Shown one piece after another: positions 22,907 through 61,104 of a stretch of 64,000 bases of DNA. The position numbers and the translations under genes were made by a program. Under the pieces are notes generated by a model. It was given only the letters and a program-made list of their open reading frames with translations. It had not been told where the DNA came from and did not search any database. Source of the DNA: Dastarcus helophoroides (lineage: Eukaryota > Arthropoda > Insecta > Coleoptera > Bothrideridae); NCBI GenBank assembly GCA_028583605.1, contig CM053328.1, positions 31,789,578 through 31,853,577 of the forward strand. The letters run 5' to 3'. How positions within the stretch are numbered: position 1 is the stretch's first letter; each line of letters begins with the position of its first letter.

Positions 22907-24754
22907 GATCTGAAACCTTGAGAATGTTCATATGGGATTTTTAAATGCAAGAAAACTCATTTGAAGTTATAAAACATATCGAGAGGACTCATATAATATT
23001 CTGGAGGTCCAAAAAACCTCATTTAGAGCAATAAATTAACAAAAAGGTCCTTTTAGAGCTCTCAATTAAAAAAACTCCTCTGATTTTCAAAATCACTTGG
23101 TAGAAACATTTCAAATAGAAAATCTCAAATGAAGCTCTTTATTGTTATGAAAAATAATCATCTGCTCTAAAACTACAAGACCCATCTAAAACTTTTAACA
23201 TTGCAATGCGCAATCCCTGAAGGAATTCCATTTACATCCCCAGTATTTTAAGAGACTTTGTTAAAAGTTTTAACTCGTAAATAAAAGCAATGAATATGAC
23301 AAGAAACGATTTTTTTTAGGAAATTACATATTGCGCTTTAAGATATAAAGGAAACATTTAAAATCTCAAAAATCGCTGAACTTTTGAGTAAGTCTTCTAA
23401 GGCTCTAAATTTGTAATTAAACATATTTTGACTTTCAAACTTTTAATGAAATACATACTAAGCTTCAAGTTTTCAAGAAAATACTCAAAAGTCACAGAAA
23501 TCGCTGGACCTTTTATATAAAGTCTGCTAAGCTTTAAACTTGTAATTAACCTTATTTTAAACGCTAAGATTTCAAAGAAACTCATCTAGCTGAGGTTCAA
23601 GATCGCAGTCGATGATGATCATAATACTACACCATGTAAAATTACAAACAAACACTATGTATCACGTACATACTTATTGAAATGTAATTAAAACAACTTG
23701 GCCCTAAGTAAAAAATACGACTTATGGGTTCCTTTAAACTTTAAACTTGTAGTAATTGACCACGGATTAACACCTGCGTTTTACTTATGAAACAAACAGC
23801 GTTCACCTTGGTTCTTAATTGGTCAACCGCTTATTGTAATTTATAAATAATAATAGTATAAAACTGAAAAAAATAAAACCTAAAAAATCCATTATCCATA
23901 TTTCAATAATTCTAAACCCTAAATAGTATTCTAGCCCTATTCAACGCCCTTCCTTTCTTTTTCACTCAGCTACCAATTTAAATAAATAAAAGAAGTTAAT
24001 TAAGTTGTCCGCTATGTAATTTGATGCCCAGTAATTGTTTCACACAACTTTCGGGTTGAACAAAACGTCAAGAAGATAAAAAATGGTTAATAACTAATTG
24101 ATCGACGATTAACAGAACCCACAACAATAAAATATACAAAAAAAAATAGATGATTTTATCGAACAAATTTAAAGAACAAGTATATTTGCTGCCAAAATTA
24201 TTGACTGATTAAATGTTGGGCCAGCTTAACATTTTATCATCTTCAAAATGCATTAAAGTTGTTACTCTTTTAAGTAAATTTTTATTACTGTTATTCTTGA
24301 TTTGTAACATTGAGATCCACATTCTTTAAATTATTGGCAACGTTTATTCGATCCTTATAATTCATTTTTTCAACTGCTGATGGGTTTCAGTGGATACCAA
24401 AACATAAATTTTAATCTATTCTATACCCAGAGTTCAGTTTCTTCTGCATTTTGCTCAAAGTAAGCATCTAAATAGCATGAAAATAAAACAGGGACTAGAC
24501 TGCACCAGTCAACTTTCCAAATGTGTAATAGTGGATCATATGTGGCTGAACTAAAAACAGCTAACTTCTTGACGCTCAGTAGAAATGGTTACTCTGACAA
24601 GTCAGGAACTTTCTTCTAATGCACAGACCAAGAGATTTTAACATTTATCAGATATAATTTCTCAATATGACTAGTCTTCAAAGCTATTGATGTATGCATT
24701 AGAATAAAATCTTTGACTTATGAGAATGATCATTTCTGCTAATCGATATTTTTT
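22907..24754. other. Unassigned AT-rich DNA
   Basis: From 22910 to 23600 there are loosely repeated phrases (AAGCTTTAAA, CTTGTAATTAA near 23400 and 23530) that suggest an old tandem field. After 23600 I see nothing recognisable. Confidence 0.5.
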
Positions 24755-25975
24755 TTAATCCGCTCGCGAAGAGGAAGCCCATTATGCTTTCAAAGCACTG
24801 CGAGTAGGATACGGAAACAAGTATAGATGGCGATGAACCGCCTTCTTAAACAAGGATAGGTTGTAATTTTTGGGAAAAACTCCTTTCGGTAACAAGTTCC
24901 ATGACTTGGAAGTTCTATAGAAAAAAGAGTCTCCGTAGACAGAAGTCCTCACTGTGTCAAAGGACCGCACAGGAATTGGCTGTCTCCGACTGTCTAGTAC
25001 GCCTCAAGAATCTTGCCCTTGGGGAAATCAATCCTATGGGTTCCTGTGAGCATCTTCCATGATAGTACTTGTAGAAAAGTCACAAGTCACCAACCATACG
25101 CCTGTGCTCTAGTGTTTCAAGAGAATCGGTCAGACTTGAATCCAAGAGAGCTCAAGTGTGTTTTGGGGCTGAACTCCAAACATGAGAACAGTATTCTAGT
25201 GTTGGCCTAACTTGAGCTTTATGTAGTGTAAGCAGCTGATGAGATGTGAAGTACTTTTTAGCTATAAAAAGAAAGCTGAGCTTCTCAGAGGCGAAGTTGG
25301 CAATGGCGCGCCCATAATAGTCCCAAGAGAAGTTAGTGCTCGCATTCACTCCTAGGATAGACAGATTAGATCCCATCGGAAGGATTTTACCTCCATTAGA
25401 ATGTTTGTTGCATTATCCCTTGATGTTTTCTTAGAGAAAACCGGGGCCTGAGTTTTTGAAGCGTTGAAGCAGACCAAATTGTCCTTACCCCATTCCAGAA
25501 TAATCTCGAAATCCCGATTAATCGTCTGTATCTGCTGTTCCTTTAGTCGATCTGAAGCAGCGATAGATAATGGTTTGTCGGAGAAAAAAGATGACACAAG
25601 GTTACTATCATACGGGTAGCTGTATATAGGATTGGAAGTTAAAGCTAAGAGATCGTTTATGTGTAACAAAAATAGAGTAGGAGACAGAACAGGCCCCTGA
25701 AGCACCCCTGCGTTAATCGCAAATGTCAAGATGCAAGACTCAAGATGCCATTGACGACGACCTGAAGAGATCTGTCAACCAGAAAATTGGATATCTAATG
25801 ACAGAGTCTAGAAGGAAGAACATAAGATGTTAATTTGGCAAGAAGAGATCGGTGCCAGATTCTGTCAAAAGCCTTTGAGATATCCAATGCCACAATCCTA
25901 GCCTCTCGATGTTTTTCCATAGCTGAGTTATAGATATGAGTAACAGTTAGTAATTAACTGTTTGTTGTTCAGATA
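24755..25975 (-). mobile_element. CR1/Jockey-group LINE, 5'-truncated (copy 2)
   Basis: Read on the minus strand, the copy starts within the RT fingers (about 25975). INAGVLQGPVLSPTLFLLHI and SYPYDSNLVSSFF (active-site YADD lost) come next, then the block to SFLFIAKKYFTSHQLLTLHK. The last part is DTVRTSVYGDSFFYRTSKSW to HPTRSALKA with TAA at about 24784. The open frames 25729-25352, 25376-25152 and 24970-24782 are pieces of this. Frameshifts make it inactive. Two bases away from 24755 the sequence becomes T-rich, the A-tail on the other strand. Confidence 0.88.
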
Positions 25976-29640: not shown

Positions 29641-30160
29641 GGTTTACTTCTTTCGAGGTTGCACCATGTCAAAAAACTACTAAAAGTGTATGGCCTTTAG
29701 CTCACCATCGTCGTAGGGGGTTTCTTTAAAAGAAAAAAGGAAATGCAAGAAAAAATTAATATAAAATACAAGAAAAATACCAGAAAACATTGAAAAACAA
29801 ATCTTGTACCTCTCTGAAGATGATAGCTTGGCTATCAAAACGCGTTAGAGCAACTGTTATTGTGTTTTTAATCTTTCCTGGTTTCAGGGGACAAGATTTG
29901 TTTTTCAATTTTTGAAGATAACCTAGGAGCTTTCCGTTCCACCAAAACCAGAAAACATTTAAGAAAAATACAAGAAAACATTAAAGACTTAAGTTCTAGA
30001 TATCAGGAACAGGGTAACTCAGTATGATTTCGTCCATATCACAGGACGAAACTACCAAAATGAGAAATGGCACAAAAGACAAAATTGTTCAGACAGAAAA
30101 GCACGGCAACTTAGTATGTCAACCATACCAGAGGCATAGGCTCGCCGAAAGAGCCCATGC
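29641..30160 (-). mobile_element. Penelope-type terminal fragment, split by a family B insertion
   Basis: The left part (29660-29760, CTACTAAAAGTGT and CACCATCGTCGTAGGGGG) matches 45670-45725 of the Penelope-like element. The right part (30000-30155, CAAAAGACAAAATTGTTCAG and CATACCAGAGGC) matches 45850-45930. Between them sits a family B element at 29780-29959. The hammerhead-like core seen at 45683 is degraded here. Confidence 0.65.
29780..29959 (-). mobile_element. Family B element with 12-bp target duplication
   Basis: CCAGAAAACATT occurs at 29780-29791 and 29948-29959. The 156-bp insert reads (minus strand) from the TTTTGGTGGAACGG terminus to a short opposite arm ending near CAAGATTTG. 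On the plus strand the core is CTGAAGA, GATAGC-TTG-GCTATC, then CAAAAC where GAAAC is expected. It has therefore lost the essential G. Confidence 0.8.
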
Positions 30161-30524: not shown

Positions 30525-30945
30525 CATATATCAACTTTATTTGAATGTTTCGTTTTATAATTTTAACTTTTTCTCAATTTTTGATTTTTATTTCTTGGTG
30601 AACTGGACTAGTCCTTGGTTAACTTCAAAAATCGAAATACAAATCTTGTCCCCTGAAACCAAGAACTATTAAAAAACACAACAAAGGTTGCTCCTAACGC
30701 GTTTCGATAGCCATCTTCAGACAAGAGTATCTCTCTGAAGATAATAGCTTGGCTATCGAAACGCCTTAGAAGCAACCTTTGTTGTGTTTTTTAATCTTTC
30801 TTGGTTTCAGGGGACAAGATTTGTATTTCGATTTTTGAAGATAATCTAGAACTAGTACCTTCCATCCAAAAAATAAAAAAATCAAAAATTGAGAAAAAGT
30901 TTAAATTATAAAAAAATTCGAAATTTTCAAATAGAGTCGAAATTT
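30525..30945. mobile_element. Family B palindrome, two full arms with inverted flanks
   Basis: The left arm 30595-30735 is inverted relative to the right arm 30737-30870, and both arms have full outer termini (CTGGACTAGTCCTTGG on the left, CTAGAACTAGTACC on the right). The inverted symmetry continues 40-70 bp outside (TTTCTCAATTTTTGATTTTT versus AAAAATCAAAAATTGAGAAA type), so no simple target duplication is seen. The right arm keeps CTGAAGA, TAATAGC/GCTATC, GAAACGCC and TTAGA. The left arm lost part of stem II. Confidence 0.8.
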
Positions 30946-33479: not shown

Positions 33480-35420
33480 TTCGAAGAAATTTTCACAAGG
33501 TGAACGTTTTTTCGTTCGACTTCCAAAATTTCATTTGTTTCTCGAAATTTTGATTTGATTTTACCTCTCCTAATTCTTCAAAATCTGTCTTATTTGGATA
33601 TGTTCTGTTTTTTTTTTAACTTTTTACTTGTTCATAACGTTTGTCCTTGTTAAACATTTTATTTTTTTAACATTTCAGCTGTTTTGAAAATTTCCTTTTC
33701 AATGTTTCAAATTTTTCTGAATATTTTGGATTTATCTCGAAGTTTTGAAGTTTTTCGACAATTCCGAATTTTTTCGGATGTTTGATCTTATTTTTGAGAA
33801 TGTTGACCTTTTTTGAAATCTCGACTCGAAATTTCAATTTTTTTGCAAATCTGTTTTTAGATTCGATTTTTTTCGTTCGACTTCCAAAATTATATTTTTT
33901 TTCTCGAAATTTTAACATGATCTTAAAAATTTCGAATTTTTTCAAAATGTTGACTTTTTGAAAACTCCAACCTCCCCAAATTCTACAATATTCTGTCTTA
34001 TTTGGATATATTTAGCTTTTTTTTAACTATTTAGTTTTTTACAACTTTTGTCCTTATTAAACATTTTTTTTTTAAATTTCAGTCTTTTTGAAAATTTCCT
34101 TTTCAATGTTTCACTTTTTTTTGAATATTTTGCATTTATCTCCAAGTTTTGAAGTGTTTCGAAAATTCCGACCTTTTTCGGATGTTTGACCTTTTTTGAA
34201 ATGACTCGACAATTCAATTTTTTTGCAAATCTGTTTTTAAATTCGATTTTTTTTGTTCGACTACCAAAATTTCATTTTTTTCTCGAAAATTTAATTTGAT
34301 TTTAAATATTTCGAATTTTTAGACTCTGAAAATTCCAATCTCTCCAAATTCTTCAAAATTTTGTCTTATTTGAATATATTTTGTTTATTTAACGCTTTGG
34401 TTTTTTATAACTTTTGTCCTTGTTAAACATTTTATTTTTTTAAAATTTCACCTTTTTTGAAAATTTAGTTTTCATGTTTCAATTTTTTTTTAATATTTTA
34501 AATTTTTCTTCAAGCTTTGAAGTGTTTACAAAATTCCAACTTTTTTCGGATGTTTGACCTTATTTTTGAGAATGTTGACCTGAAATTGAAATTTCGAGGC
34601 GAAATTTCAATTTTTTTTTTCAAATCTGTTTTTAAATTCGATTTTTTTCGTTCGACTACCAAAATTTCATTTTTTTTCGAAATTTTAACATGATTTTAAA
34701 AATTTCGATTTTTTTCATAATGTTGACTCTGAAAATTCTAACCTCCCCAAATTCTTCAAAATTCTGTCTTATTTGGATATATTTTTTTTTTAACTCTTTA
34801 GTTTTTTATAACTTTTGTCCTTGTTAAACATTTTATTTTTTTAAATTTCAATCTTTTTGAAAATTTCCTTTTCAATGTTTCAATTTTTTTTGAATATTTT
34901 TCATTTATCGCCAAGTTTTGAAGTGTTTCGAAAATTCCGACCTTTTTCGGATGTTTGACCTTATTTTTGAGAATGTTGACCTGAGATTTCGACTCGAAAT
35001 TTCAATTGTTTTGCAAATCTGTTTTTAAATTCGATTTTTTTCGTTCGACTTCCAAAATTTCATTTTTTTCACAAAATTTTAACATGATTTTAAAAATTTC
35101 GACTTTTTTCATAATGTTGATCCTTTGAAAATTCCAACCTCTCCAAATTGTTCAAAATTCTGTCTTATTAGGATATATTTTGTTTTTTTTTGAACTCTTT
35201 AGTTTTTTATAAGTTTTTTTCTTGTTGAGCATGTTATTTTTTGAAAATTTCACCTAATTTGAAAATTTCGTTTTCGATGTTTCAAATTCTTTTGATTATT
35301 TTGAATTTATCTCAAAGTTTTGAAGTTTTTCGAAAATTCCGAATTTTCTCGTATGTTTAACTTAACTTTTGACGCTGACTTTTTTTGAAATTTCAACTCG
35401 AAATTTCAATATCTGTTTTT
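33480..35420 (+). repeat. Tandem array of ~5 units of ~370-408 bp, T-rich strand
   Basis: TGTCTTATTTGGATAT recurs at 33586, 33994, 34362, 34765 and 35161 (spacings 408, 368, 403, 396), each time followed by TAACTTTTGTCCTTGTTAAA in the first four. Each unit is itself built of TTTCGAAATTTT-type motifs, so this is a higher-order repeat of the simpler one. Copies differ by small indels. Confidence 0.85.
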
Positions 35421-37744
35421 CAATTTAATTTTTTCGAAACATGTCAATTCTTTTTGAAAATTTGAATTTTCTGAAAGTTTCAACTTTTAAAAACATCGAC
35501 TCTCTGGAGTGTTTAACTTTTTTAATTTGATTTTTTCCAAAGTTTTGACTTTTTTTTAAAATGTAAAAATGACGACTTTTTTTGAAAAGGTCGCCTTCGA
35601 TTTTTATTAAAAATTCTTAAACATTTTTCGTTTTTTTTATATCGTCTTCGTAATTTGAAAATTTCATAATTCAAATTTTCCTATTTTTGCTAGTTTTTAC
35701 TTTTTTTGATGCTTACTTGTTTTATCAATTGCAAGACTTTCTCAGCTTCGTCTTTCTTTAGGATTTCGATTTGCTTTCTGCATTCTTAATTTTTTGTAAA
35801 TCTTTACACAAAATTTCGATCCTTTCTCAAAGTTGTAATTTTGTTTTAATATGTTTCGTCTTTTCTTTTTAAATATTTCGTCTTTATATTTTGAAAATTT
35901 CATAATTCAAATTTTTCTATTTTTTTTTTTAGTTTTTACTTTTTTTAATGTTTACTTGTTTTATCAATCGCGAGACTTTCTCAGTTTCGTCTTTCTTTAG
36001 GATTTCGATTTATTTTATGAATTTTTAATTTTCTGCAAATGTTTACACAAAATTTGGATCATTTCTCAAAATTGTAATTTTTTCAAAATGTTGATTTTTT
36101 CTATAAATCAGATCATGTTAAAAAACTGACTTTTAAAAAGTTCTACTCTTTTTCTAAAAATGTCCACCTTTGTCCGACTCTGGACAATTTCTTGAAATCT
36201 TGACCTTTCGTGAAAATTGCGACATGTTTTCAAAAACTTCGACTTTTTCTCTAAGTTTTGAGTTTTATGTAATAAACTGAACTTCTATTTAAGAAACTCG
36301 ATTTTTGTTATTTTCATTTTTTGAAAAATTGAATTTTTCTCAAACGTTGCACCTTTGATCCTCAAAATTTCGACTTTTTCTCGAAGTTACAACTTTTTCA
36401 AAATTTGGTTTTAAAAATTTCGCCAGTTTTTTAAAATTTCGACTTCTTGTCAAATTTTGACACAAAGCTTTGTTCTCAAAATTTCAAATTTTTTCAAAAT
36501 TCGGTTTTTTTTTATTCAATGATTATGTTAAAATATTGTTTTTTTTAACTTTTACCTTTTACATATTATTCACTTTTTACCATTTCCACTTTTGTCCGAA
36601 ATTTCAACTTTATTTTTGAAAATTTCGACTTTTTTCAAAAATTTTGTCCTTTTTTCGAAGTTTCAACTTTTGTGCAGAAAATTTTCACTTTTTTTTAAAA
36701 GAAAATGATTTCTTTTTTAAAATTGCAACTTTTTTAAAAAGTTTTAATTTTTTTTTTAAATTCTCGACATTTTTCAGAATGTTTACAGCTTCTTTCAAAA
36801 TTTTTACCTTTTATCATCGACTTTTTTCGAAGTTATGGCTTTTTTTCAGAATTTCAACTTTTTTCGAAATTTCTAACCTTTTTCAAAGGTTCGACTTTTT
36901 GTGAAAACTCCGACACTATTTCAAAATTCTTTTGAAACTGTTGATTGTTTTCTTAAAACTTTGAATATTTGTAGCTTTGACTTTTTGAAAAATTTGCCTG
37001 TTTAATTTTTTTAATAATTCAAAAATTTTCGGACAAAAAGTAAAATTCCAAAAATATCAAAAATACCACAAATGTACTGAAAAGTCAAAATTTAAAAAAA
37101 AACACAAACTTCAAAAATGTAAACATTTCGAAAAAATTCGCAATTTTCAAAATTAAGTTAAAATTTCGAGAAAAAGTCGAAAATTTCAAGAGTGGATATT
37201 TTAAAATGTCGAAATTGCCACAAAAAGTTGAAATTCTAAGAATTAGAAACAAGTCTGAACTTTCAATAAAAAAAGAACTGTTTAAAAAGAGCCTGAATTT
37301 TCAAGGAGTCGATATTTTTAAATACGTCGAAATTTTCAATAGAAGTCATTATTTTTAAAAAAGCTGAAATTTTCCAAAAGAACTACTATTACTTAATTTA
37401 CTATTTTTCGAAGTTTCAACTTTATTTTTGAAAATTTCGATTTTTTTTTCAAAAATTTTGTTTCAACTGTTGTGCAGAACATTTTCACTTTTTTTAAAAT
37501 GAAATGATTTCCTATTTTTAAATTGCGACTTTTTTTGAAACTTTAATAAAATTAAAAATTTCAAAAAAGTTGCACTTTAAAAAAAATGATTTTCTTTGAA
37601 ATTTTTAATAAAATTAATTTTTTTTTGAAATTCTCGACATTTTTCAGAATGTTCACACCTTCTTTCAAAATTTTTACCTTTTATCATCGACTTTTTTCGA
37701 AGTTATGGCTTTTTTCAGAATTTGAACTTTTGTCGAAATTTCTA
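35421..37744 (+). repeat. Satellite-like block, T-rich, with internal duplications
   Basis: TTTCGACTTTTTC-type motifs continue. Within the block, 35640-36110 is a two-copy tandem repeat with a 239-bp period (TTACTTGTTTTATCAATNG at 35713 and 35952). The segment 36830-37005 (GAAGTTATGGCTTTTTT, CAAAGGTTCGACTTTTTGTG) recurs at 37698-37860. An A-rich island at 37023-37380 is a copy of 32370-32722. No genes. Confidence 0.8.
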
Positions 37745-38035
37745 ACCTTTTTCAAAGGTTCGACTTTTTGTGAAAACTCCGATACTTTTTTGAAATTTTT
37801 TTGAAACTGTTGACTGTTTTCTTAAAACTTGGAATATTTGTAACTTTGACTTTTTGAAAAATTTGCCTGTTTCATTTTTTTCTAGAATCTTATTCTCCAA
37901 ATTGCGAATTTTTAAACAACTTTGCTGCATCTCTCTAAAGATGATAGCTTGGCTGTCGAAACGTGTTAGAGCAACCTTTGGTGTGTTTTTTAATCTTTCT
38001 TGGTTTCAGGGGACAAGATTTGTATTTCAATTTTT
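37745..38035 (+). mobile_element. Family B plus arm joined to T-rich satellite DNA
   Basis: This 290-bp stretch is almost identical to 5965-6253: CAAAGGTTCGACTTTTTGTG, then the hammerhead arm from 37930, ending at CAATTTTT (38035). The core has CTAAAGA, so G5 of the hammerhead is changed, and stem II is GATAGC/GCTGTC with one G-U pair. It shows that satellite-like DNA can be part of a family B insert. Confidence 0.8.
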
Positions 38036-38059
38036 AGAAATAATTTGATACTGGACGTT

Positions 38060-39029: not shown

Positions 39030-40247
39030 GCCAATGGACATGTGCCTAACAGCAGCAATGGAGGTAATGCTAGGCTAACTCCTCTCCGCCTTTTAGTGAA
39101 GAGGAAGGCGATCAAAGGAGCCTCAAGATTACTGCAATTAAAACAATTTAAAGAAGGAGACATCGCCGGTCACAAGGGAATCCTCAAAGAATATAGCCCA
39201 GTGATTTTAGCAAGATCGGTTTATTATAATGCAACCCAGGTACGAATTTGATCATTCCTTTGAGGTGGACTTAGGTAGCCACATTGACCCTCAATCAGTA
39301 CCTGAAGAAAAACACAAAATATCCACCTCGTTTATAGATGGATCAAAGACAGCACATGGTACTGAAGTGGGAATTTATGGCCCTAACTATAGGTTCTCTA
39401 AAGCCTTGGGAAAAGACCCAACTATCTTTCAAACTGAAATATGCAATAGAACTCTGCGCCTACGAGTGTCTTCGAAGAAACCTGAAAGGAACAAAGATCT
39501 ACATTAACTCCGACAGCCAAGCGGCAATAAAGGCTCTCAGCAGTTGCCTTGTCAATTCCAAACTTGTTTTGGACTGTCAACAAACTCTAAAGCAACTGGC
39601 TGAACAAAACAGGATCAACCTTAAGTGGGTGCCAGAGCACAAAGGAATACAAGGGAATGAAACTGCGGACCAATTCGCTAGAGAAGTACCTGCATCGTCA
39701 TTTCTTGGAGCTGAACCGGTTTTTGGTTTTCCTAAAAGTCAAATCAACAATGAGGTCAAAAAAAAAATGGGAAGCAAAGTTAAGAATTTCCTACTGGAGA
39801 TCATATCCAGGACTACGACAGGCAAAAAGATTCATATCTAGAACGCTTGAAAAGACAAAGGTCTACTTAGAACTCAGCATCCGATTTGAGGACCCTAACC
39901 GTTCTCTTAACAAACAGGACATTGCTCTATGAGGTACCACCTCAAGAAAATGGCTGAAACAAACCTATGTTGCTTTTGCGCAGAAGCTGTGGAGACTGCA
40001 GAATATGTGCTATGCAAGTGCGATGCGCTTGCACGCAAAAGGCACGTCCAACTCGGATGGGTGTCCTTAGACCCCTCAGATGTGGAAAAACTCAATCCGA
40101 AGTTCAAAATAAACTTCTAGAAAAGTTTGAACCTGGGAACTACATAGATCAGGGTATGCACAGAAGATCTCCTTAGGTCGAGGTGCGGGGTGGACGAAAA
40201 GAAACACGAAACGACCCATATATAATCTAATCTAATCTAATCTAATG
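39030..40247 (+). mobile_element. I-like LINE with RNase H, 5'-truncated (copy 3), (TAATC)n tail
   Basis: The copy starts in the post-RT block (LTAAMEVMLG, then RKAIKGASRLLQLKQFKEGD). RNase H follows as FIDGSKTAHGTEVGIYG, TIFQTEI, NSDSQAAIKALSSCLVNS and WVPEHKGIQGNETADQFARE, so all main acidic positions survive. The zinc motif is CCFCAEAVETAEYVLCKC, with Tyr at the usual His. One base is missing near 39440, which splits RNase H into two frames, and another shift lies near 39830. The element ends in about five TAATC repeats at 40223-40247. Confidence 0.88.
39338..39841 (+). pseudogene. LINE RNase H domain fragment
   Basis: 167 open codons include IELCAYECLRRNLKGTKIYI, NSDSQAAIKAL and KWVPEHKGIQGNETADQFA. 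These are RNase H motifs with the catalytic E, D and D. The first strand, IDGSK with its Asp, is in another frame (39229-39507) because of one lost base. It degrades RNA in RNA-DNA hybrids in intact members. Confidence 0.75.
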
Positions 40248-40636
40248 CTGTAGTGCTTGGTAGAATATACAGTATTTTGTATTTAACGTGATGGTAACGT
40301 GAAACGATAAGTTTAACCCCTATCCAAAATAGCTAAACGTGCCTAAAGAAGTCTTCACTTCAAAAGAGATTAATATTAAAGTAGAAACCTTCAAATAAGG
40401 ATTCTATTTTTTTTTAAATTAATTTTATTTTAAAAAATTTCGAGTTTGGTCTGAGACATTGGATCTTTTTTTTTGAAATTTCGGCTTTAACATTTAATAT
40501 TCGAACTTTTCTTCAAAATTTTTGTAACTTGTAAGCTGGTTTGATGGAACGGACTGGTCCTTGGTTATCTTCAAAAATTGAAACACAGAACTTGTCCCCT
40601 GAAACCAAGAAAAATTAAAAAACACAACAAAGGTTG

Positions 40637-40677
40637 CTCTAACGCGTTTCGACAGCCAAGCTGTCATCTTCAGAGAG
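40637..40677 (-). ncRNA. Hammerhead-ribozyme-like motif, left arm
   Basis: Read on the minus strand: CTCT (stem I), CTGAAGA (fits CUGANGA), one extra T, GACAGC-TTG-GCTGTC (stem II, 6 bp), GAAA, palindromic ACGCGT (overlapping the last A), then T as site 17 and AGAG (stem I, 4 bp). Helix III would have only two pairs in one molecule, but six as a dimer. The extra T after CTGAAGA is not canonical. Activity is inferred, not shown. Confidence 0.55.
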
Positions 40678-40690
40678 AAACTCTCTCTTT

Positions 40691-40731
40691 CTCTCTGAAG
40701 ATGACAGCTTGGCTGTCGAAACGCCTTAGAG
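40691..40731 (+). ncRNA. Hammerhead-ribozyme-like motif, right arm
   Basis: CTCT, CTGAAGA, T, GACAGC-TTG-GCTGTC, GAAACGCCTT and AGAG follow in order. It differs from the left arm in ACGCCT instead of ACGCGT, which spoils the helix III palindrome. Stem I and stem II are fully paired. Confidence 0.5.
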
Positions 40732-41280
40732 CAACCTTTGTTGTGTTTTTTAATTTTTCTTGGTTTCAGGGGACAAGTTCTGTGTTTCAATTTTTGTAAG
40801 CTTGTAAAATGTATAGTTTCAAGAAAGGATCAACAATCCTGTGCATGTTGCAATTTCGTCATTGAAATCGAAACCTTGAAATTATTTCCAATGTGATCTT
40901 TTTTTAAATAGAAGCTTTGAATTTTTCAAAATTCCATTTAGCCTTAAAATATTTTTGTAAGTTCGAGTACCATCTAAAAATTACAAATTTTATTTCGTTC
41001 CGTTGAGGAAAATGGTGAAAGTTTAGATTGCAGTGGAAATTTTGAGAAGAGATTTTACAACTAGAAGATTTTATTTTGAGATATCGAAGTCGAAGTTGAA
41101 AAAAGTAAAAATTGAAAATTGTTAAAGTTAAAAAAAATTAAAATTTGAGGAAACCAAATTCATTAAAATTATCTCAAAATTTAGTATTTAATAGTCAACT
41201 TCAATTTTTTTTTCTGAAATGTTGGTGTTAATTCAGAGATTTTTATTTCAAAAATATTTGAAATTTCAAGTAAAATTTGA

Positions 41281-42599: not shown

Positions 42600-44640
42600 T
42601 TCAAAAATTGGAAAACATAAATTGAGTCCCAACGACTCAGTTTAATGTAACTTGAGTCCCGATGTTTTAAGTATAGGCGCCTAAATTGAGTACCGGTGGT
42701 TCCAGCCTAGATACGTAAATTAAGTCCTGTTTAAGGTTCATGGAAAAATAAAGGTATGTACATGCAATTATCTGTTGTTATCACAGATATAAACTTTCTC
42801 TCTATATTGTAGCGCTAAAAGAAGCATAGATGGGTTAAAAATAATGTTGCCGAGGAATAACGATTTATTAACCAATTTAAATTGTGTACAACACACTTAA
42901 TTCAAATTATTTGGCAGGAATTTGAAAGATATCTGTTTAATAGAGTAATGAAAGCGAATGTGCTTATTACTTAAAGCATTTATTGATTGTCTCAAATATA
43001 CAGGATGGGCCATAAGTAATGGTACACAGAGCAATGGTGGATTTTTCGAATAAAAATAATGTGATTTAGTTACATTTACCTTATACCAAAAGTTGATATT
43101 AACAGAGATGCAGGATGCTAAAGTTGCAAAAAAATTTTTTTTTGGTATAACTATTGAATTAATTGTAATATAGGCACCAAATTTGGCACAAGCGGGTTTC
43201 TTAGTCGACAAACTCTAATTTGCTAACATATTACTTACTAATAGCTGATAGGAGGCGCTACTTGCGCTGTGTGCATAATTCTAAATCATCATAACTTTTT
43301 TGTGCACCCACGTATATTAATTTTAAATGGGTTATTTTATTCCCCATATTTTTTAGGTAAAAAAGGTGTACTTTCTAAAAGTTGATACGCGCAACCGTTT
43401 CCAAGATATTTACGTTTAAAACTTGACGTACTTGGTTTTAAATTACTAAGATATTAAATTTTCGAAGTAGGCTTGAAAAAAAAGTAATTATAAGACAGCT
43501 TTGAAACAAATTTATGTCAAACATTACTTTGCTGATAACATTATTACCTAAATTTTGAAAATCCCAATAAAGAATATCCAAAAAATTGAGACGTAATTTA
43601 TTTTCTAAATAGAGATGTGAGATATGATGTCTGAGTTTGCACAAGAAAATTTTAATAATCTGGATGGTCAAAGCAGATATTTGGAGATGAATTTCAATAA
43701 AAGACAGCCAGATTTTTAATTGTTTACAATCGCTTTACATGAAAAAAGTCATTTCCCACATTTATTTTTGACAATAAATTTTGTTTCGGTATTTTATTTA
43801 AATTTGCTTTAGAAATTTACAAAATATGTGTAATAATAATGTCAGTAGAGTAATATTTGATATAAACTATTTTATAGTTAGTTTTATTACTTTTATTTTG
43901 GAACCTACTGCGAAAAATTCACATTTACATAAGTTAAAATAAACGTACTGCAAATTTTGAAGGCAAATATCTTGAAAACGGTTGCTTGTATCAACATTTA
44001 GAAAGTATAACTTTTTTACGTAAAAAATGTAGGTTAATAAAAATATCTATTTAAAATAAGTGTACATAAAGACACAAAAAAGTTATTATGCTTCAGAATA
44101 ATACAAGGTAGCGTAGGTGGCGCCCCCTATGAGTTAGTGGCACTCTGTTAACAAATTAGAATTTCTTGACGAAAGAAACCTTCCTATGCCAAATTTCTTG
44201 TCTATAGTGAAATGTGTTCAACAGTTATGCGAAAAAAATCACAATTTTTTTTTCAACTTTGACACCCCGTATCTCTTTTAATATCAGCTTTTGGTATAAG
44301 GTAAATGTGGCTAAATCACGTTATTTTTATACGAACAATCTACTCTTGCTCTATGTACCATTACTTATGGTCCATCCTGTATTTTTCTTTGAATGATTAA
44401 GCTTTTTCGACGACTAACTTCCAAGTTGGATGTATGTTTCTGACTGTACAACTTTCAAAGCTTCTATTTGTCACTACATATTAAGTTTGATGTAACATTA
44501 ATTTGAAAGCAATAAGATTTTGACATTAGAATAGGTAGTTGGGACTCAATTTACGAACCTATAGCCAGTACCTTGGACTCAATTTACGTACCTTCAAACG
44601 TCATTAAATAACAACGGAACTCAATTTATATCGACCCACC
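42600..44640. mobile_element. Foldback-type element with repeated AAATTGAGTCC ends
   Basis: The left end has four spaced copies of TAAATTGAGTCC-like text (42619, 42652, 42684, 42715). The right end has three inverted copies (GGACTCAATTTA at 44539, 44576, 44616). Between them lies the long inverted repeat 43001-44379. Such ends made of short spaced subrepeats around a large palindrome are typical of foldback elements. Whether the outer ends and inner palindrome are one element or a nested pair is not settled. The outer limits and target duplication were not resolved. Confidence 0.55.
43001..44379. mobile_element. Long inverted-repeat element, arms ~560-600 bp, TA flanks
   Basis: The left end is CAGGATGGGCCATAAGTAAT and the right end is its inverted counterpart ATTACTTATGGTCCATCCTG. 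TA lies directly outside on both sides. The inverted match continues inward, with substitutions, through TTTTTGTGCACCCA / GTGTACATAAAGACAC and the AACCGTTTCCAAGATATTTA / AAATATCTTGAAAACGG region. Only a ~200-bp unpaired centre is left near 43600-43800. The few open frames (43438-43671, 44214-44396) have no motifs. A TA duplication would fit a Tc1/mariner-like mechanism, but the superfamily is unknown. Confidence 0.7.
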
Positions 44641-45624: not shown

Positions 45625-45682
45625 TTAATTTTACAGGATATACTTTTTCCGGGACTGGACCGTGTCAAAGAACTACTAAAAG

Positions 45683-45727
45683 TGTTCGACGTTTCGTCCA
45701 CCATCGTAGGGGGCTTCTTCAGGAACA
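45683..45727 (-). ncRNA. Hammerhead-like motif in the Penelope 3' end (family A)
   Basis: Read on the minus strand: TGTTC (stem I), CTGAAGA, AG-CCCCC-TACGAT-GGTGG-AC (stem II region), GAAA, ACGT (overlapping the last A), C, then GAACA, which pairs perfectly with TGTTC (5 bp). ACGT is self-complementary, so helix III could form only between two molecules. Hammerhead motifs are known at the ends of Penelope-like elements. The AG/AC flanks of stem II are not canonical. Confidence 0.55.
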
Positions 45728-45982
45728 AAGAAGAGAAACAGTAAATAAAAAGAGAAATATAAAGGAATATGCAAAAACGAAAGGGCCAACTTCAAGACAC
45801 AGAGCACGGTATGTCCATTATACCAGAGGCGAAACTCTTTTGAATTGAAAATTGGTACAAAAGACAAGAAAGTTTAGACAGAAGAGCACGGAAACTCAGT
45901 ATGTCCACCATACCAGTGGCGAAACTCTTCTAAGAGGAAAGAGGGAAAGGGAAACTTTATATACCATTCGTCTGTGCGATCA

Positions 45983-46624
45983 CTACCGAAGATTTCCGAC
46001 GGTTGGTTTCCAGATGGAGGAAAGCATGGAACCGTCGTCTCTGTTGATGTTTTTGGGGAATTTTTGGATTACAATGGCCTTGCGTATTTTCCTATTATAG
46101 TAATTGGGAATATTGGACATAATTGAAATTTTATCAAAGAGAATCTTATGTCCGGTCTCATGTTGATGTTCCGCAATGGCTGACTGCGAAAATAAACCAG
46201 ACCTAAGACATCTTTGGTGCCCGGATATTCGCGTCTTTAATGATCGTTCCGTTTCTCCGATGTACACTGAACCACAAGAACAAGGAATCCTGTACACACC
46301 ATTAGAACATAAGGATGAAATTTTATCTTTGGGAGATAGGAGGAGCTGTTGGATCTTTGAGGATGATGAAAAAATGGGTTTAATACTGTGTTTTCTTAAT
46401 AATTTTCCGATTTGATCTGTTACTCCGTGAACATAAGGAAGAAAGGCTTTAGAAGAAATTATTGAATTTTGTGAAGGACGAGGGGTAGGGTGAAGATGTC
46501 GTTTAATGACTGTTTTAATGCATATGTGTAATACTTCTATACGGCGTGTTGTGTATAATCGGCACTGCAAAATGCTTTGTGAGATGAAAGTATATGTCGT
46601 ACTCTTTCGAGGACAAGCATTCAT
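45983..46624 (-). CDS. Penelope-like GIY-YIG endonuclease part
   Basis: 213 codons are open. After a linker, FLPYVHGVTDQIGKLLRKHS (~63-82) matches the Penelope RT-to-endonuclease junction. The GIY-YIG nuclease follows: GVYRIPCSCGSVYIGETERS (~134-153, with the paired Tyr and the CxC pair), KTRISGHQRC with the catalytic Arg, and AEHQHETGHKI. It nicks target DNA in active elements. The first ~60 codons (MNACPRKSTTYTF onward) do not look like Penelope protein and may be foreign or frameshifted. Separation from the RT frame by about 200 bp is a sign of decay or of an intron-like insert. Confidence 0.82.
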   Translation of the reverse strand: MNACPRKSTTYTFISQSILQCRLYTTRRIEVLHICIKTVIKRHLHPTPRPSQNSIISSKAFLPYVHGVTDQIGKLLRKHSIKPIFSSSSKIQQLLLSPKDKISSLCSNGVYRIPCSCGSVYIGETERSLKTRISGHQRCLRSGLFSQSAIAEHQHETGHKILFDKISIMSNIPNYYNRKIRKAIVIQKFPKNINRDDGSMLSSIWKPTVGNLR

Positions 46625-46831: not shown

Positions 46832-47539
46832 TTACATATATCTTTCAATGTCGTGCGATTTGTAACCATGGTTGCGGAGGTTGAAACAAATTTTGTTCAA
46901 TTCGTCTGAAAGATTTATCGGTTGTGAAATTGCTACAGCTCGTGAAACAAGTGAATTTATGACAGAATGTTTTTGGGAAGGGTGATGATGGGAATCTGCC
47001 TGCAAATAAGGATTAGTATGGGTGGGTTTTCGATAAACGGAATGAGAAAGGCGACCGTTTGGTAAACAGGTGACCAGTTCGTCAAGAAAAGGAAGAGAAG
47101 CGTTGTTTTCGACTTCCATAGTGAAGCTAATGAAAGAATGTAAACTGTTTAGGTGTTCCAAAAATAAATTTAGTGAATCCTTGCCATGTGGCCATACGAT
47201 AAATGTGTCATCTACATAACGAAGCCAAACCTTGGGTTTTAAATCCGGAGTTTCCAACGCAGTGTTTTCAAAAGATTCAATGAAAATATTTGCTACGACT
47301 GGAGATAAGGGGGAACCCATTGGGGTGCCGGAGACTTGTTTATAGAAGCTGCCATTGAAAGAAAAATAGGTCCATGCGAGGCACATTTCAGTTAAATCAA
47401 CTAGAGAATCCGCATTCTCTTTGCCTGAAAGTGATTGACGAATTATCCTCATGGAGTCGGAAATTGGAACATTAGTGAATAGTGAAGTGACGTCAAAACT
47501 TACCAGAATGTCGTGGGGGTCTAGGGTTAATTCGGACAA
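46832..47539 (-). CDS. Penelope-like reverse transcriptase, main domain
   Basis: 235 codons are open. RT motifs in order: SFDVTSLFTNVP (residues ~14-25, first catalytic Asp), VSGTPMGSPLSPVVANIFIE (~69-88), WLRYVDDTFIVWP (~105-117, catalytic YVDD) and NNASLPFLDELV. A Penelope-typical tail, SVYRKPTHTNPYLQADSHHH, follows. The product would copy RNA into DNA at the insertion site. The N-terminal YGLPKIHK region lies upstream beyond a stop near 47525, and the endonuclease is in a separate downstream frame. The usual protein is one long chain, so this is a broken part of it. Confidence 0.85.
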   Translation of the reverse strand: MSELTLDPHDILVSFDVTSLFTNVPISDSMRIIRQSLSGKENADSLVDLTEMCLAWTYFSFNGSFYKQVSGTPMGSPLSPVVANIFIESFENTALETPDLKPKVWLRYVDDTFIVWPHGKDSLNLFLEHLNSLHSFISFTMEVENNASLPFLDELVTCLPNGRLSHSVYRKPTHTNPYLQADSHHHPSQKHSVINSLVSRAVAISQPINLSDELNKICFNLRNHGYKSHDIERYM

Positions 47540-47984: not shown

Positions 47985-50747
47985 AGAAACCCAACTCTCC
48001 CCATCCACCAACATGGTCCATTTGCTTTGTCCTAATTACACACAAGAGGGAAATTTGTGCTTTTACGCCAAGCGACCTGTAGTGTCAACGAGAAAAAGTC
48101 CTGGAATCTTCTGACCATGAAGTGATTTGGCAGAAAATCTGCTCCAGAAGCGAAGTAATATTCATTTGTTCACTTTATTTGTTTCCAAACGATCCCTCAT
48201 ACAGGCAGTTCTTCTCTTATCTCTTCGTAACCTTCGATCACCTACAGACGAATTATCCAAACGCTGAGGTGGTCTTTTCCGATGACTGCAACGTACACAA
48301 CATCCCCCGGTTAAGGTTTTCTTCTCGAACTGACGAGGCGGGAAGCGTGGCAGAAGCTTTTGCCTTCACTTGTGGACTAGCGCAATTAATTAAGGAACCC
48401 ACAAGAATTCCCATGAACATAATCTACTCGACCTTTTTCTTACAAATTCTCCAAATCCATATAAAATCTCTGTGACATCACCGCTTGGAAATTCCGATTA
48501 CAAGCTTGTAGCAACGTCTCGCTCGCTTCATATACTACCTCTTTCTCAGACACAGTCCCGTAGGGTTTGGCATTAACTTTACTAACTCGGAAGAATTAGG
48601 AGATTCCTTTGCATCTTTTCCATGGCAGAAAGTCTGCTTTAACTCAGACAACCCTTTCCCAGTCGCCAAATCCATCACTCAAAATATCGTGATTTCTAAT
48701 TCCCAATTTCCCACTCCCAAAAGAAGTTTACCTTCCCTAAATCTTCAGCAAAAAATGTGCTGGGACTGTCTCCTGCAAAAATCGCGCACATCGTCTTTGG
48801 CAAAATAATCCCTAAGTGGAGACTAGGAGCACATTTGTAGATGCACGAAATTTTTGTAAATAGGGTATTGACGAGGCTAAGAGTGATTTCGATCGTAAAA
48901 TATGCCAGAGGCTTATCAACTCCGAACGGTTCGAGGTCCTTTTGGGGATTTGCAAAATCGATTGGAAAGAATTCTGCATCTTCAAATTTTTCACTTTTAT
49001 TCGATGACAATAACAATATTGCGACTACTTTCAATGAAAAGGCAGACATGCTTGCCCTAATATTTGCTAAAAATTCCAAACTTGATTCTCGAAACTCTAA
49101 ACCTCCTATTCTCCTAAGGTTGGCACTTCGATGCATGGAGTTGTTTTCAGGCAACGCACAATCGGGAAGATTCTCCTCGAGCTCGACACCTCGAAAGCTT
49201 CTGGCATTGATGGTATACCCGCTATTGTTCTTAAGAAATGCGCTACATAGTTAACTCCTATCCTTAACAAATTGTTTACACTATTTTACAACAAAGGTGT
49301 ATTCCCTAACATCTGGAAATCTGCTAGGGTGCAGTCTGTCCTTAAAAATGGAAAACGGAATCTGGTTAACAACTATCGCTCTATATCTTTGTTGCCCGTT
49401 ATATCTAAAGTGGTGCAAAAGGTTATTAACTTCAATATTATCAAATATCTGGAGAAGAATAGAATCATCTCGTATAGGTAATACGGTTTCAGACAACAAC
49501 GCTTAACTGGCGATCAACTGGCATATGTTACTCATATCTGTAACTCAGTTATGGAAAAACATGGTGGAGGCTAGGATTGTGGCATTGGATATCTCAAAGG
49601 CCTTTGTCAGAGTCTAACACCGATCTCTTTTTGCCAAATTAACATCTTATGGTCTTCCTCCTGGATTCTGTCATTTGATATCCAATTTTCTCGCTGACAG
49701 ATCTCTTCAGGTTGTCGTCGAATGGCATCTCATCAGAGAGATTTGCGATTAATCCAGGGAGTGCCTCAGGGGTCTGTTCTGTCTCCTACTTTGTTTTTGT
49801 TACACATAAACGATCTATTAGCTTCAACTTTCAATCCAATATACAGTTATGCAGATAACAGTAGCCGGGTGTCATCTTTTTTCTCCGACAAACCATTATC
49901 TGTCGCTGCTTCATATCGACTAGAGGAACAGCAGATACAGATGATTAATTGAGATCTCGAAATTATTCTGGAATGGGGTAAGAAAAATCTGGTCCACCCC
50001 AATGCTTCAAAAGCTTAGGCCTTGGTTTTTTCTAAGAAAACATCAAGGGATAGGGCACCAAACATACTAATGGACGGTAAAATTCTCCTGATGGGATCTA
50101 ATTTGTCTATCCTAGGAGTGAATGCTAGCACGATTATTTGCGCGCCATTGCCAAGTTCCCCTCTCAAAAGCTAGGCCTTCTTTTTAAAGCTAAAAAGTAC
50201 TTCACATCTCATCAGCTACTCATACTATCCTAAAGCTCAAGTTAGACCAACACTCCAATACTGTTCTTATGTTTGAAGTTCAGCCCCAAAGTTACTTTAG
50301 ATCTTTTGGATTCAATTCAAAGAAAAGCAATTCGCCTAATCGATGAGGAAAGTTTAACCGATTCTCTCGAAAAACTAGAGAACAGGCGAATGGTTACTGA
50401 CATGTCTCTTTTCTTCAAGTACTATCATGGGAGATGCTCGCAGGAACTAATAGGATTGATACCCCCAAGGTACAATTTTTGAGGCATACAGACAGTCGGA
50501 GACAGCAAATTCCTGTTTGGTCTAGCTTTACCCCGTGAGAACTTCTGTCTACGGAGACCCCTTTTTCTATAGAACTATCTAAGCTATGGAACTCGTTACC
50601 TTAAGGAATTTTGCCCAAAAATTACGACCTATCCTTGCTTAAGAGCCTGGTTCATCGCCATCTATCCTTGTTTCTGCATCATACTCACAATGCTTTGAAG
50701 GCATAATGGGGTTGCCCTTTGCGAGTGCATTAAACTTTTTAAAAAAA
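47985..50747 (+). mobile_element. CR1/Jockey-group LINE, longest copy (copy 4)
   Basis: This copy includes the endonuclease: TETQLSPST near 47995, then FICSLYLFPNDPSYRQFF and NYPNAEVVFSDDCNVHN (normally GDFN), followed by FSSRTDEAGSVAEAF. A linker with RLRVISIVKYARGL comes next, then RT with NNYRSISLLPVISKVVQKV, GVPQGSVLSPTLFLLHINDL, SYADNSSRVSSFFS (YADN for YADD) and SIQRKAIRLIDEESLTDSLE. The C-terminus is a decayed ALKA with TAA near 50705. The A-rich tail is at about 50735-50747. Many shifts are present. At about 2.76 kb it defines most of the family's length. Confidence 0.87.
48122..48475 (+). pseudogene. LINE endonuclease domain fragment
   Basis: 117 open codons of an AP-endonuclease-like domain: ICSLYLFPNDPSYRQFFSYL and EVVFSDDCNVHNIPRLRFSS. 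The conserved GDFN is SDDCN, so a key residue is altered. The beginning of the domain is in another frame upstream (47990-48120) and its end is cut by a stop at 48473-48475. Confidence 0.65.
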
Positions 50748-53303: not shown

Positions 53304-56300
53304 CTGAAAAATAGGAAATGATTTATGTAGTTTTTATTTTTATATTAGGATCATTCGAGGTGAAAGGTCGTTAGATAAACACGCCAACAACCAGTTTTTC
53401 ACAACATTAATTAATGATAATAATTTTTTTCTTAAATTTTGACCCAAACACTTATAATCCTAAATTATTGTTATTTTTATTAATATATTTGTTATTTTAT
53501 GGCTTCTTGTTCTTAAAATTGTGACTCTTAGACTTATATTTTTTATGTATTTACTTTTTTCCTTAAAATTAGGCCCCAGAATTATATTTTGATTGAAGAA
53601 TTATAATGTATTGTTGCAAATTTTGCTTTCATTATCGATATTGTTCCTAATCAAAATCGTTTCTGCGCAAACGTAAGCCAAATACAAATGAATACGTAAT
53701 TTTGGTGGAACGGACTGGTTCTTGATTATCTTCAAAAATTGAATAGTATATCTCTCTGAAGATGATAGCTTGGCTATCGAAACGCGTTAGAACAACTTTT
53801 GCTGTGTTTTCTAATCTTTCTTGGTTCAAGGGACAAGATTTGTATTTCAATTTTTAAATGAATGCGGTTAACGTAAAACATTGTCATCAAAATGTTACCT
53901 CTGATGATTCGATAGTGGATTCCAAGATGCAACTGATGTTTCCGTCAGCGGGCTAAAGTACAAAGTATCATCCAGTTTATTTACTGCTAAACCAAGCCCT
54001 TGCGATGCCTTTTTACCCACTAAAGTGATAGGAAGCTCTTCGTTTTCAGCTGGTGGCCCTTTCCGAAGAGTCTCTGTTGGAATACTGAAGATCCTATCTG
54101 TAGCCAACGGCTGATAATAAAACAGCCCCATTTTAGGAGAATGCGTGATTCCAACAATACCATCCATAAGAGTAAAGCGTTCACCATTTATAGTATAATC
54201 GGAGAAATTTGGATCAGGAAACATAGTTGGATGAATATGCCTCCAAGCAGCATCTCTCCTGCCATCATAGGTAACTATTCCTGTTAATATTACTGATTTA
54301 TTTGAGTGTTATTTTGTGGGTATTTAACTTACCAGGCGATGCTGTATCTGACATATATACAAAAGCGGAATCACAGGTTCCTTGAACACTCTCGTCTATG
54401 ACCAAATTTGTTAAAAGCGAATTAGGCCTCAGAACTTCTCTGGGGAAGACTACGGTTCGCACAATTTGATCGGTTGTGAGGTCAAACACCACCAATTTGG
54501 GAGAACATATTGGTTTAAATTCTTCCAATGAGTTCATGATACCGGAATCCAAAACCTAAAATAAAAAATAACAGAAATTGCATTGCACACATTATCGCTA
54601 TTCGAACTATTTCCTTAAAAAACAATATACAGCATATGGCACATATATTCCTTCGATCAAAATACAAAGCTCAAGTCAGGCCAATCACTAGAATACTGTT
54701 CTTATGTTTGGAGTTCACCCCCAAAGCACACTTTAGCTCTTTTGGATTCAATTTAAAGCAGCCATTCGCCTAACTGATGACAATAGTTTAACCGATTCTC
54801 TCGAAACACTAGAGCACAGGTGGATGATTAGTGACAAGTACTATCATGGAAGATGCTGGCAGTAACGATTGATTCCCCCAAGGGCAAGATTTTTGAGGCA
54901 TACAAGACAGTCGGATACAGCAAATTCTTGTGAGGTCCAGCTTGACACAGTGAGGACTTCTGTCTACAGAGATTCTTTTATTTATGGAACTTCCATGCTA
55001 TGGAACTCGTTACCGAAAGGAATTTTCCCCAAAAATTACAACCTATCCTTATTCAAGAAGTTCAACGTGTAGCACGTTTGATTATTCCATTGTAGGACAT
55101 TTAGGTAACGTTATTTATTAAATTTATGTAATGTACCTAACCGCAATTAACGCAAAATACGCTTGCATTTAAGTGATTAATTTATAATTGCAAGATTGAA
55201 AGTGACCTTTGTACCCTTGGTTACATGTACATGTGGCTCACAAAACATGTTTAACTTCTTAACACTGGTGTTTGAAAATGGATTCACTCAATTTTTTAAT
55301 TTAATCCACTCGCAAAGGGCAACCTCATTATGCCTTCAAAGCACTGCGAGTAGGATACGGAAACAAGGCTAGATGGCAATGAATCGCCTTCTTAAACAAG
55401 TAATTTTTGGGGAAAATTTCTTTTTGGTAACGAGTTCCATAGCTTGAAAGTTCTATAAAAAAAAGAGTCTCCTTAGACAGAAGTGCTCACTGTATCAAGC
55501 TGAACCGCTCAGGAATTTGCTGTTTCCGATCGTCCTGTATGCCTCAAGAGTCTTGGCCTTGGGAATATCAATCTTATTAGTTCCTGCTAGCATCTTCCAT
55601 GATAGTACTTGTAATTGATTTTTCGTTCGCCTTTTGCAATGTTCCAAAGAAAAAAGCATTTTCTGGAGATGTGTTGTAGGTTCTTATTTCAGAAATTATG
55701 ATCATTATTGAACAACTTATGTGCATGCACCAACTTAGAAACACACCCAACATGAGTCGGGCAATCTTGGTAAATATATAAAAAATAAAATAAAAATATG
55801 GCAAAATGTATAAAAATACCTTTTGCAATCAATTCAGTTGGATTCAATTTCTGGAAATAAACTTCAAAGATTTTGTCTGTCTTCGACTGTTCTGTATGCA
55901 TCAAGAATCTTGCTTTTGGGGGAATCAGTCTTATTAGTTCCTGGGAGCATCTTCCATGATCGTACTTGTAATTAATTTTTTGTTTGTCTTTTGCAATGTT
56001 CCAAAAAAAAACTCTTTCTGGAGATGTGTTGTAGGTTCTTATTTCACAAATTATGATCATTATTATCAACTTATGTGCATACACCAACTTAGAAACACAC
56101 CCAACATGAGTCGCGCAGTCTTGGTAAATATATAAAAAATAAAATAAAAATATGGCAAAATGCATAAAAATACCTTTTGCAATCCATTGAGTTGGATTTA
56201 TTCAAACAAATTTTGGTAAATTATCTTTTGGAACTTTCCCACGAAGCTCAATTTCTGGAAATACACTCCAAAGATTTTGCAAACCTTTGTTTCAAATATT

Positions 56301-60832: not shown

Positions 60833-61053
60833 ATAATTCACTTGAAATACAAATCTTATCCCCAGCAACCAAGAAATATTAAAAAACGCAACAGAGGCTG
60901 CTCTCTCTGAAGATGATAGCTTGACTGTCAGCTTCAGAGAGAGAGCCACCTCTGTTGTGTTTTTTATTCTTTCTTGGTTTCAAGGGACAAGATTTATATT
61001 TCAGTTTTTGAAGATAACCAAGGACCAGTCCGTTCCACCAAAATAATTCACTT
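60833..61053 (-). mobile_element. Family B element with 11-bp target duplication, inside the LTR
   Basis: ATAATTCACTT occurs at 60833-60843 and 61043-61053, bounding a 199-bp insert. The related LTR at 20 kb reads TTATAATTCACTTAACTATC without a break, giving the empty site. The element is in minus orientation: TTTTGGTGGAACGG begins at 61042 and it ends at GTATTTC (60844). The arms meet at CTGACAGTCAAGCTATC-type sequence, and both ribozyme-like cores have lost the GAAACGCG part. Confidence 0.92.
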
Positions 61054-61104
61054 AACTATCAGCCTGTCTGGCTAATTAAATAACCAACTGACTAACTAAC
61101 TCAC

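Follow-up and report, generated by a model that had tools for sequence, protein, structure and literature searches.

A short palindrome-forming repeat with a hammerhead-like core in the beetle Dastarcus helophoroides, probably moved by Penelope-type machinery

The window analysed here, a 64-kb stretch of contig CM053328.1 of Dastarcus helophoroides (Coleoptera), carries at 40529-40802 an insertion (I8) made of a near-perfect palindrome of 256 bp (40538-40793) between two copies of the 9-bp sequence TTGTAAGCT (40529-40537 and 40794-40802), as a first-pass annotation of this DNA had described. This 9-bp duplication was taken from direct reading of the sequence and kept; longer strings proposed by an automatic finder (an 11-mer and a 10-mer) are spurious. 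The arms of the palindrome (40572-40680 and 40688-40796) are 99% complementary and separated by a gap of 7 nt. The tailed arm (40539-40682), whose sense strand is the minus strand, runs from its 5' end AGTTTCTCTCTG.. through a hammerhead-like core (40645-40673, minus strand) and a point designated site 1, and continues as a tail of ~35 nt to CCGTTCCATCAAAC. The untailed arm (40688-40796, plus strand; core at 40695-40723, plus strand) stops at site 1 (TTTCAATTTTT).

On the sense strand, the arm reads (A)GTTTCTCTCTGAAGATGACAGCTTGGCTGTCGAAACGC(G/C)TTAGAGCAACC... up to site 1, and the tail extends one arm by ~35 nt to site 2 (CCGTTCCATCAAA). A 144-nt query made of an arm and its tail finds 16 matches in the window at E<=1e-3, one of them being the query; 50 windows resampled at first order gave 1. 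Grouped together, the matches make up ten insertions or fragments, numbered I1 to I10. I1 (5802-6266) is a composite flanked by the 13-bp duplication AGTTAACAGCTTT; it includes a tailed arm (5815-5929, minus strand), a partial sense hammerhead (5932-5963, plus strand), 186 bp of captured flank and an untailed arm (6147-6254, plus strand). I2 (13098-13188, plus strand) is an arm and tail with an internal deletion and a G-to-A change at position G5 of the core, I3 (13556-13592, plus strand) is a tail fragment and I4 (15278-15420, minus strand) is a lone tailed arm, flanked by a repeat of 7 bp exact (9 bp with one mismatch) that is not significant alone. I5 (29779-29959, plus strand) carries a full tailed arm, just 15 nt of an untailed arm and a 13-bp duplication, I6 (30596-30871) is a palindrome tailed on both sides, whose flanks are inverted, and I7 (37930-38043, plus strand) is an untailed arm with a G5-to-A core. 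I9 (53686-53863, plus strand) joins a 43-nt tail piece (53701-53743, minus strand) to a full untailed arm (53751-53858, plus strand) within an exact 8-bp duplication. Finally, I10 (60833-61053) has an untailed arm (60842-60942, minus strand), a tailed arm (60902-61042, plus strand), an 11-bp duplication and a rearranged hammerhead centre. Nine related insertions or fragments accompany I8 in the window. With respect to the first-pass list of related copies, 5815 and a copy at 6147 are the two ends of one insertion with its 13-bp duplication, 37745 is the start of host flank rather than of the arm that lies at 37930-38043, and the fragment at 13556-13592 is additional.

The flanks of several of these insertions have strings in common (13 bp for I1 and I5, 11 bp for I10, 8 bp for I9), and none was found on testing I2, I6 and I7; among 4000 random flank pairs, 19% reach 7 bp, 8.5% reach 8 bp and 1.4% reach 11 bp. 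Five of the six two-ended insertions of the window (I1, I5, I8, I9 and I10) display one tailed and one untailed end, I6 being the exception. The larger palindrome around I6 (30528-30943) takes in ~65 bp of flank on each side and looks like fold-back copying rather than a two-ended insertion. Its inverted flanks score 81, the maximum in 2000 random flank pairs being 48; at I1, I4, I5, I8, I9 and I10, the flank scores of 12-15, against a random mean of 15.0, reveal no inversion.

Over 292 bp, host flank included, 37744-38035 matches the right half of I1 (an untailed arm preceded by 186 bp of non-element DNA) at 96.9% identity. As the DNA upstream of I7 is part of a local array, in which 36694-37012 and 37576-37881 are 90.3% alike, the 37.7-kb locus is the likely source and the 6-kb locus the product; the right half of I1 therefore appears to derive from I7 and its upstream flank (37744-37929), a common third source being another possibility. 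Copying of a read-through RNA, starting from site 1, would give such a half. Although the 13-bp duplication of I1 is exact, its two arms are no more than 79.8% alike, which indicates that they come from different templates.

The hammerhead layout reported in the first pass holds for CTCT/AGAG, CTGAAGA, GAAA and a 6-bp stem II. It is minimal, however, with an unpaired T and a helix III of at most 2 bp, which is not intact (ACGCCTT) in the right arm of I8. The unit contains the hammerhead consensus core, CUGANGA, GAAA and NUH with stems I and II, and an extra U follows A9. Stem II starts with an ATG. The motif CTGAAGATG-N(8-22)-CGAAACG occurs three times in the window, in two insertions, and in 0 of 100 shuffles. 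With Rfam, no hammerhead reaches the curated gathering threshold in the window, and the 53.7-kb arm does not give even a weak one; microRNA and other weak Rfam matches on the palindrome fall below curated scores and reflect the near-perfect hairpin. Three short folds (the two arms and the motif of the Penelope-like element described below) are no more stable than shuffled sequences (z -0.34, -0.63 and -0.31). Covariation in the stems, for which the first-pass annotation had asked, was found to a modest extent in 12 of the 14 window arms, both I10 arms being left out because their hammerhead is rearranged. In this alignment, 94.2% of the cells are paired, two stem II pairs are changed on both sides (46/500 shuffles reach that), the covariation score is reached by 5/500 shuffles with lower values in slid controls, and the number of pair types is reached by 439/500. 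Three window arms, at 6.1, 13.1 and 37.9 kb, carry A at G5, an important position of the hammerhead core.

The unit holds at most 41-43 codons. The frame of its consensus is open for 41 of them, stays open in 4 of 10 arms read and is open by chance in 8-16% of shuffles. The consensus matches no Pol III A or B box pattern. The exact arm pattern has no match in collections of viral and prokaryotic contigs, and a loose hammerhead scan of the viral contigs gave at least 120 stretches and nothing useful after screening.

The window also includes a broken, 5'-truncated Penelope-like element (PLE) on the minus strand. It comprises a reverse transcriptase (46832-47539; Pfam RVT_1), a part at 45983-46624 that has no Pfam match and was recognised by eye as of GIY-YIG endonuclease type from the motif GVYRIPCSCGSVYIGET, and a 3' pseudo-LTR (45630-45728). 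This pseudo-LTR has a hammerhead-like motif at 45722-45691 (Rfam Hammerhead_1, only 11 bits, E 8.2), and an ATG at 45704 opens 25 codons (MVDETSNTFSSSLTRSSPGKSISCK). With its stops read as X, the protein finds relatives at E<=1e-3 in 3444 of 7974 scored candidates; insects account for most of those with a name among the 120 listed, alongside some vertebrates and other animals. The 25 codons resemble PLE N-termini: 7 of 10 residues match one PLE protein, P0005 (E 0.006 for that single comparison), and the best score among the 120 proteins, 43, is reached by 6/1000 shuffles. Among 39 PLE proteins of at least 740 aa, ET[SLH] stands shortly after a Met in 6 (0.47 in shuffled N-termini) and [STPA]KR in 5 (0.88 in shuffled N-termini), these being two readings of CGAAACG. 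I5 sits inside a decayed end of the same PLE family (29645-30135, minus strand), which is too diverged for an empty-site comparison. A scan for PLE proteins gave none in viral contigs and one short match in prokaryotic contigs, in a Bacteroidetes record.

Other repeats surround these elements. They include a separate imperfect inverted repeat of ~1.4 kb (42994-44386), which matches its own reverse complement at 73% identity, duplications, tandem or segmental, that measure 0.7-1.5 kb and are ~82% identical (33507-35434), and a dispersed repeat family of 70-82% identity (15579-16970, 24754-25945, 49257-50746 and 54666-55060). Two ORFs are probably LINE remnants, one RNase H-like (39338-39841, E 7e-11) and one zf-RVT-like (991-1401, below the cut-off). 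A 201-aa ORF on the minus strand (61076-61681) has scattered repeat-type Pfam matches and is likely low-complexity.

The host genome (538.9 Mb) was searched with a palindromic query carrying one tail. From 2182 first-look candidates, 40 palindromes were scored; they span almost the whole query at 94-98% identity, the window copy itself aside, and the best 30 of them, one being the window copy, were fetched. Both inverted arms are present in 30/30 of these query-selected copies, which do not measure the share of two-armed insertions. The 60 arms show only 49 deviations from the consensus over 96 columns (31 in tailed and 18 in untailed arms), and the core is intact in 26/30 tailed and 28/30 untailed arms. 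Flank strings of 8-15 bp, which can take in a base or two of the element end, are common to the two sides in 29 copies (mean over all 30, 11.6 bp), whereas just 27 of 870 mismatched flank pairs used as control reach 8 bp. Thus, head-to-head inverted ends with short target duplications, a PLE feature, are present in 29 of these 30 query-selected copies.

The arms are separated by centres of 8-27 nt, of which 28 are distinct among the 30 copies, the only repeated one being a short join (GAAACTTTCT) found in three of them. Ten further palindromes gave nine centres that could be read with anchors, all mutually different, and duplications of 8, 8 and 12 bp in the three measured. As the centres vary while the arms do not, each insertion builds its palindrome anew, using two copies of one arm, instead of inheriting it. 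The first-pass proposal of a mobile, recurrent and short element with two inverted hammerhead-like arms and two characteristic ends is supported, except that the data do not support the inverted pair itself as the unit that transposes.

A tail is found at one end of all 30 copies. The other end is untailed in 29 according to the script and cleanly so in 28; one untailed end (L144) runs into another palindrome, and the second tail of L147 is supplied by another unit in which this copy sits. With a one-tailed query, two-tailed copies would score as well and tailless ones lower. Another copy (L146) lies within a PLE end, and its flanks match the uninterrupted end of the window PLE with a 15-nt overlap around the 12-bp duplication. 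The 5' end of the arm is near-constant, AGTTTC. Of the 28 tailed arms that reach the base after ..GAAACT, 19 have C there, 5 have G, 3 have T and 1 has A. Reverse transcriptases have the property of adding an extra C opposite the RNA cap, and this is the reading we favour for the first extra base; a G upstream in the template would give the same result. Private variants common to both arms of an insertion number 5 against 0.28 expected, which indicates that both cDNAs came from one source, perhaps one RNA.

Outside the selected palindromes, 53 copies of the unit also have two alternative 3' ends, at 105-118 in 24 and at 142-144 in 16; the optional tail of ~30-40 nt is a feature of PLE termini. 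At the other end, 27 of the 53 start at +1 to +6, upstream of the predicted cleavage point of the hammerhead. Four start at +42/43, i.e. at that point; three are in one locus (L128) and one in L147. These starts are a lead for a role of the hammerhead and no proof of it. In a 72-bp direct array of L128 (1233-1442), site 1 is followed immediately by the predicted cleavage point (AGAGC), an arrangement that repeated copying of cleaved RNA would give. Another locus (L142, 413-929) carries a full tailed arm, then three 72-nt partial arms at 92-bp spacing, then an inverted arm. A G5-to-A copy appears to have transposed, which counts against a required role of the hammerhead, as do the 27 starts upstream of the cleavage point and the Anolis hammerhead, described as dispensable for insertion in vitro (PMC11167929). 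The latter is also reported to cleave only when the protein is present (PMC11167929). Minimal motifs of this kind have been reviewed for PLEs (PMC7761336, PMC6155905).

Near-intact PLEs of the same genome behave like the unit. A search with P0005, a ranking that favours one PLE family, scored 55 of 5516 candidates, the best being 60-61% identical over ~800 aa with one stop. A hammerhead motif stands at the start of the ORF in 5 of 30 PLE loci, with the ATG inside stem II, and recurs in many 3' pseudo-LTRs. The 3' ends of these PLEs fall at +73 and +106 nt from the ATG, 33 nt apart; 26 ends are untailed, 22 are tailed, 14 continue as ORF and 1 is of another kind. Among 18 outward-facing pairs of PLE ends, counted without a separate shuffle control, 10 have common strings of at least 8 bp, and all 10 associate one tailed with one untailed end; the eight pairs lacking such a string are mixed in seven cases and untailed at both ends in one. 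One locus (L193) is a 171-bp inverted pair devoid of ORF, with a 13-bp duplication, and is a small product of the autonomous PLE family itself.

The unit has none of the single ORF, PLE-type reverse transcriptase and GIY-YIG endonuclease of an autonomous PLE. Seven of the 30 PLE loci include unit matches, none of which spans the start of the ORF, and no PLE with the unit at that position was found among them. The alignment of the unit with the local PLE extends only through the hammerhead and shortly beyond (its score is reached by 37/2000 shuffles); past the hammerhead, no similarity was detected between the two (1322/2000 shuffles score as well, and 735/2000 for the tails). As no PLE carrying the unit was found, the unit is classified as a PLE-driven non-autonomous retroposon rather than as a PLE or a retrozyme. 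It would be PLE-driven on the basis of its anatomy, with a presumed partner. It can be compared with SINEs, which are short non-autonomous retroposons using the enzyme of a LINE partner. The unit is likewise short, non-autonomous and dependent on a borrowed enzyme; however, it lacks a recognisable Pol III A/B box, is apparently inserted from both ends and would have a PLE as partner.

The first-pass annotation considered that the element belongs to no standard class, and the documented layout of PLEs, present near-intact in this genome, qualifies this view: inverted arms, an optional tail of ~30-40 bp at one end and an 8-10-bp duplication are described for them (PMC3846280, PMC11167929). Like the unit, the Penelope/Poseidon PLEs (Pen2a_Av of Adineta vaga, PMC3846280; Poseidon of Anolis, PMC11167929) are reported to have a hammerhead overlapping the start codon, internal starts of reverse transcription with an optional tail of ~30-40 nt, and head-to-head inverted pseudo-LTRs with palindromic junctions. 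Unlike them, the unit has no ORF and no upstream pseudo-LTR, measures only ~110-145 nt, is two-armed in its best-matching copies (which the query selected) and associates, in nearly all cases that can be read, a tailed with an untailed end. In the open-licence PMC literature, no short palindromic PLE-driven family and no fixed rule of one tailed and one untailed end were found, which does not prove their absence.

The ends, the duplications, the tail asymmetry, the variable centres and the near-identical arms are direct observations, as is the same anatomy in the PLEs. The unit is probably a non-autonomous retroposon of ~145 nt moved by Penelope-type machinery, its palindromes resulting from two joined cDNAs. 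The RNA would have 5'-AGTTTCTCTCTGAAG as its start, shortly before the hammerhead core. The PLE protein would cleave both strands of the target 8-15 bp apart, and each free 3' end would prime reverse transcription inside the same RNA at a different internal start: the first would be site 1, located ~90-100 nt past the hammerhead ATG, and the second, which gives the tail, site 2, ~35 nt further 3'. Both cDNAs would reach the 5' end of the RNA, and the ends that correspond to it would be linked through a few extra bases, leading to a head-to-head palindrome between target duplications. In this scheme, we infer the PLE protein as agent, the priming by both strands, the RNA cap and the end joining. 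In vitro, a purified PLE protein is reported to nick and extend both target strands and to start internally at two adjacent sites that define the tail (PMC11167929). No difference in start site between the strands is reported there, whereas the two ends differ in this genome, which counts against the mechanism. I1, which joins two different templates, counts for a two-ended mechanism; I6, with its two tails and inverted flanks, is as fold-back copying of a single cDNA would give and counts against it.

A variant of this explanation, which does not exclude it, sees the units as 5' mRNA fragments of an undetected autonomous PLE. A monomeric PLE mRNA would yield only such a short product, the start of reverse transcription lying within the first ~130 nt of the ORF. 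As in known PLEs, the hammerhead includes an ATG; the consensus frame is open over its 41 codons, and a PLE family of this genome makes a comparable product, the 171-bp inverted pair. However, no such PLE is among the 30 loci, the openness of the frame is weak evidence, the unit has no N-terminal match among the fetched PLE proteins (134/200 shuffled queries score as well), and a search for proteins beginning like its open frame gave no candidate. This variant is thus possible but somewhat doubtful.

Snap-back is unlikely, although part of the data agrees with it. Here, a single cDNA primed at one target end would fold at its 3' end and copy itself into a palindrome; a self-priming idea, on an antisense template, has been proposed for PLEs (PMC3846280). 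Short loops between the arms and private variants common to both arms of one insertion are also predicted by snap-back, and I6 fits it. However, the process should copy the tail and then the flank, whereas, in nearly all of the 30 copies, the second arm ends at site 1, where a direct duplication follows. Furthermore, no flank inversion exists at I1, I4, I5, I8, I9 and I10, and I1 combines two templates.

Metazoan non-LTR retrozymes, in which a hammerhead-cleaved circular RNA is reverse transcribed into the genome, resemble the unit in being short, non-coding, hammerhead-bearing and multi-copy, with duplications of more than 4 bp (PMC7229834), and the direct array of L128 is suggestive of them. 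However, retrozymes are described as repeats in tandem, 150-450 bp long and bearing canonical type I hammerheads (PMC7229834), whereas the arms of the unit are inverted, its core is minimal and there is no sign of an obligate circular intermediate. Direct head-to-tail units were seen in one array only, and half of the copies outside palindromes (27/53) start upstream of the cleavage point, which makes a retrozyme very improbable. Foldback elements and MITEs have long inverted arms and short duplications, and a stand-alone palindrome of this type, moving as DNA with both arms together, would have the high copy number, inverted arms and constant overall size of the unit, but it is scarcely conceivable given that the centre is remade each time, that the ends do not match and that single-arm or partial-arm copies exist (I4, I5, I9).

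Globally, the unit can be viewed as a PLE-driven 'SINE' that makes freshly assembled palindromes, the two target strands being assigned different start sites on the same RNA, a view to which we give even chances. If true, the centre of each inserted copy carries two outward-facing RNA start points, and the palindrome is its own divergent source for the next round. Furthermore, a general bilateral target-primed mechanism of PLEs would explain inverted pseudo-LTRs without antisense templates, the origin of the head-to-head inverted ends of PLEs being left open in PMC3846280. The copy with a mutated core (G5 to A) and the four copies, at two loci, that start at the predicted cleavage point are natural tests of the importance of the hammerhead. 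In this genome, young two-ended insertions whose ends, centres and duplications can be read are numerous, and the rule of one tailed and one untailed end that they suggest can be checked in any PLE-bearing genome.
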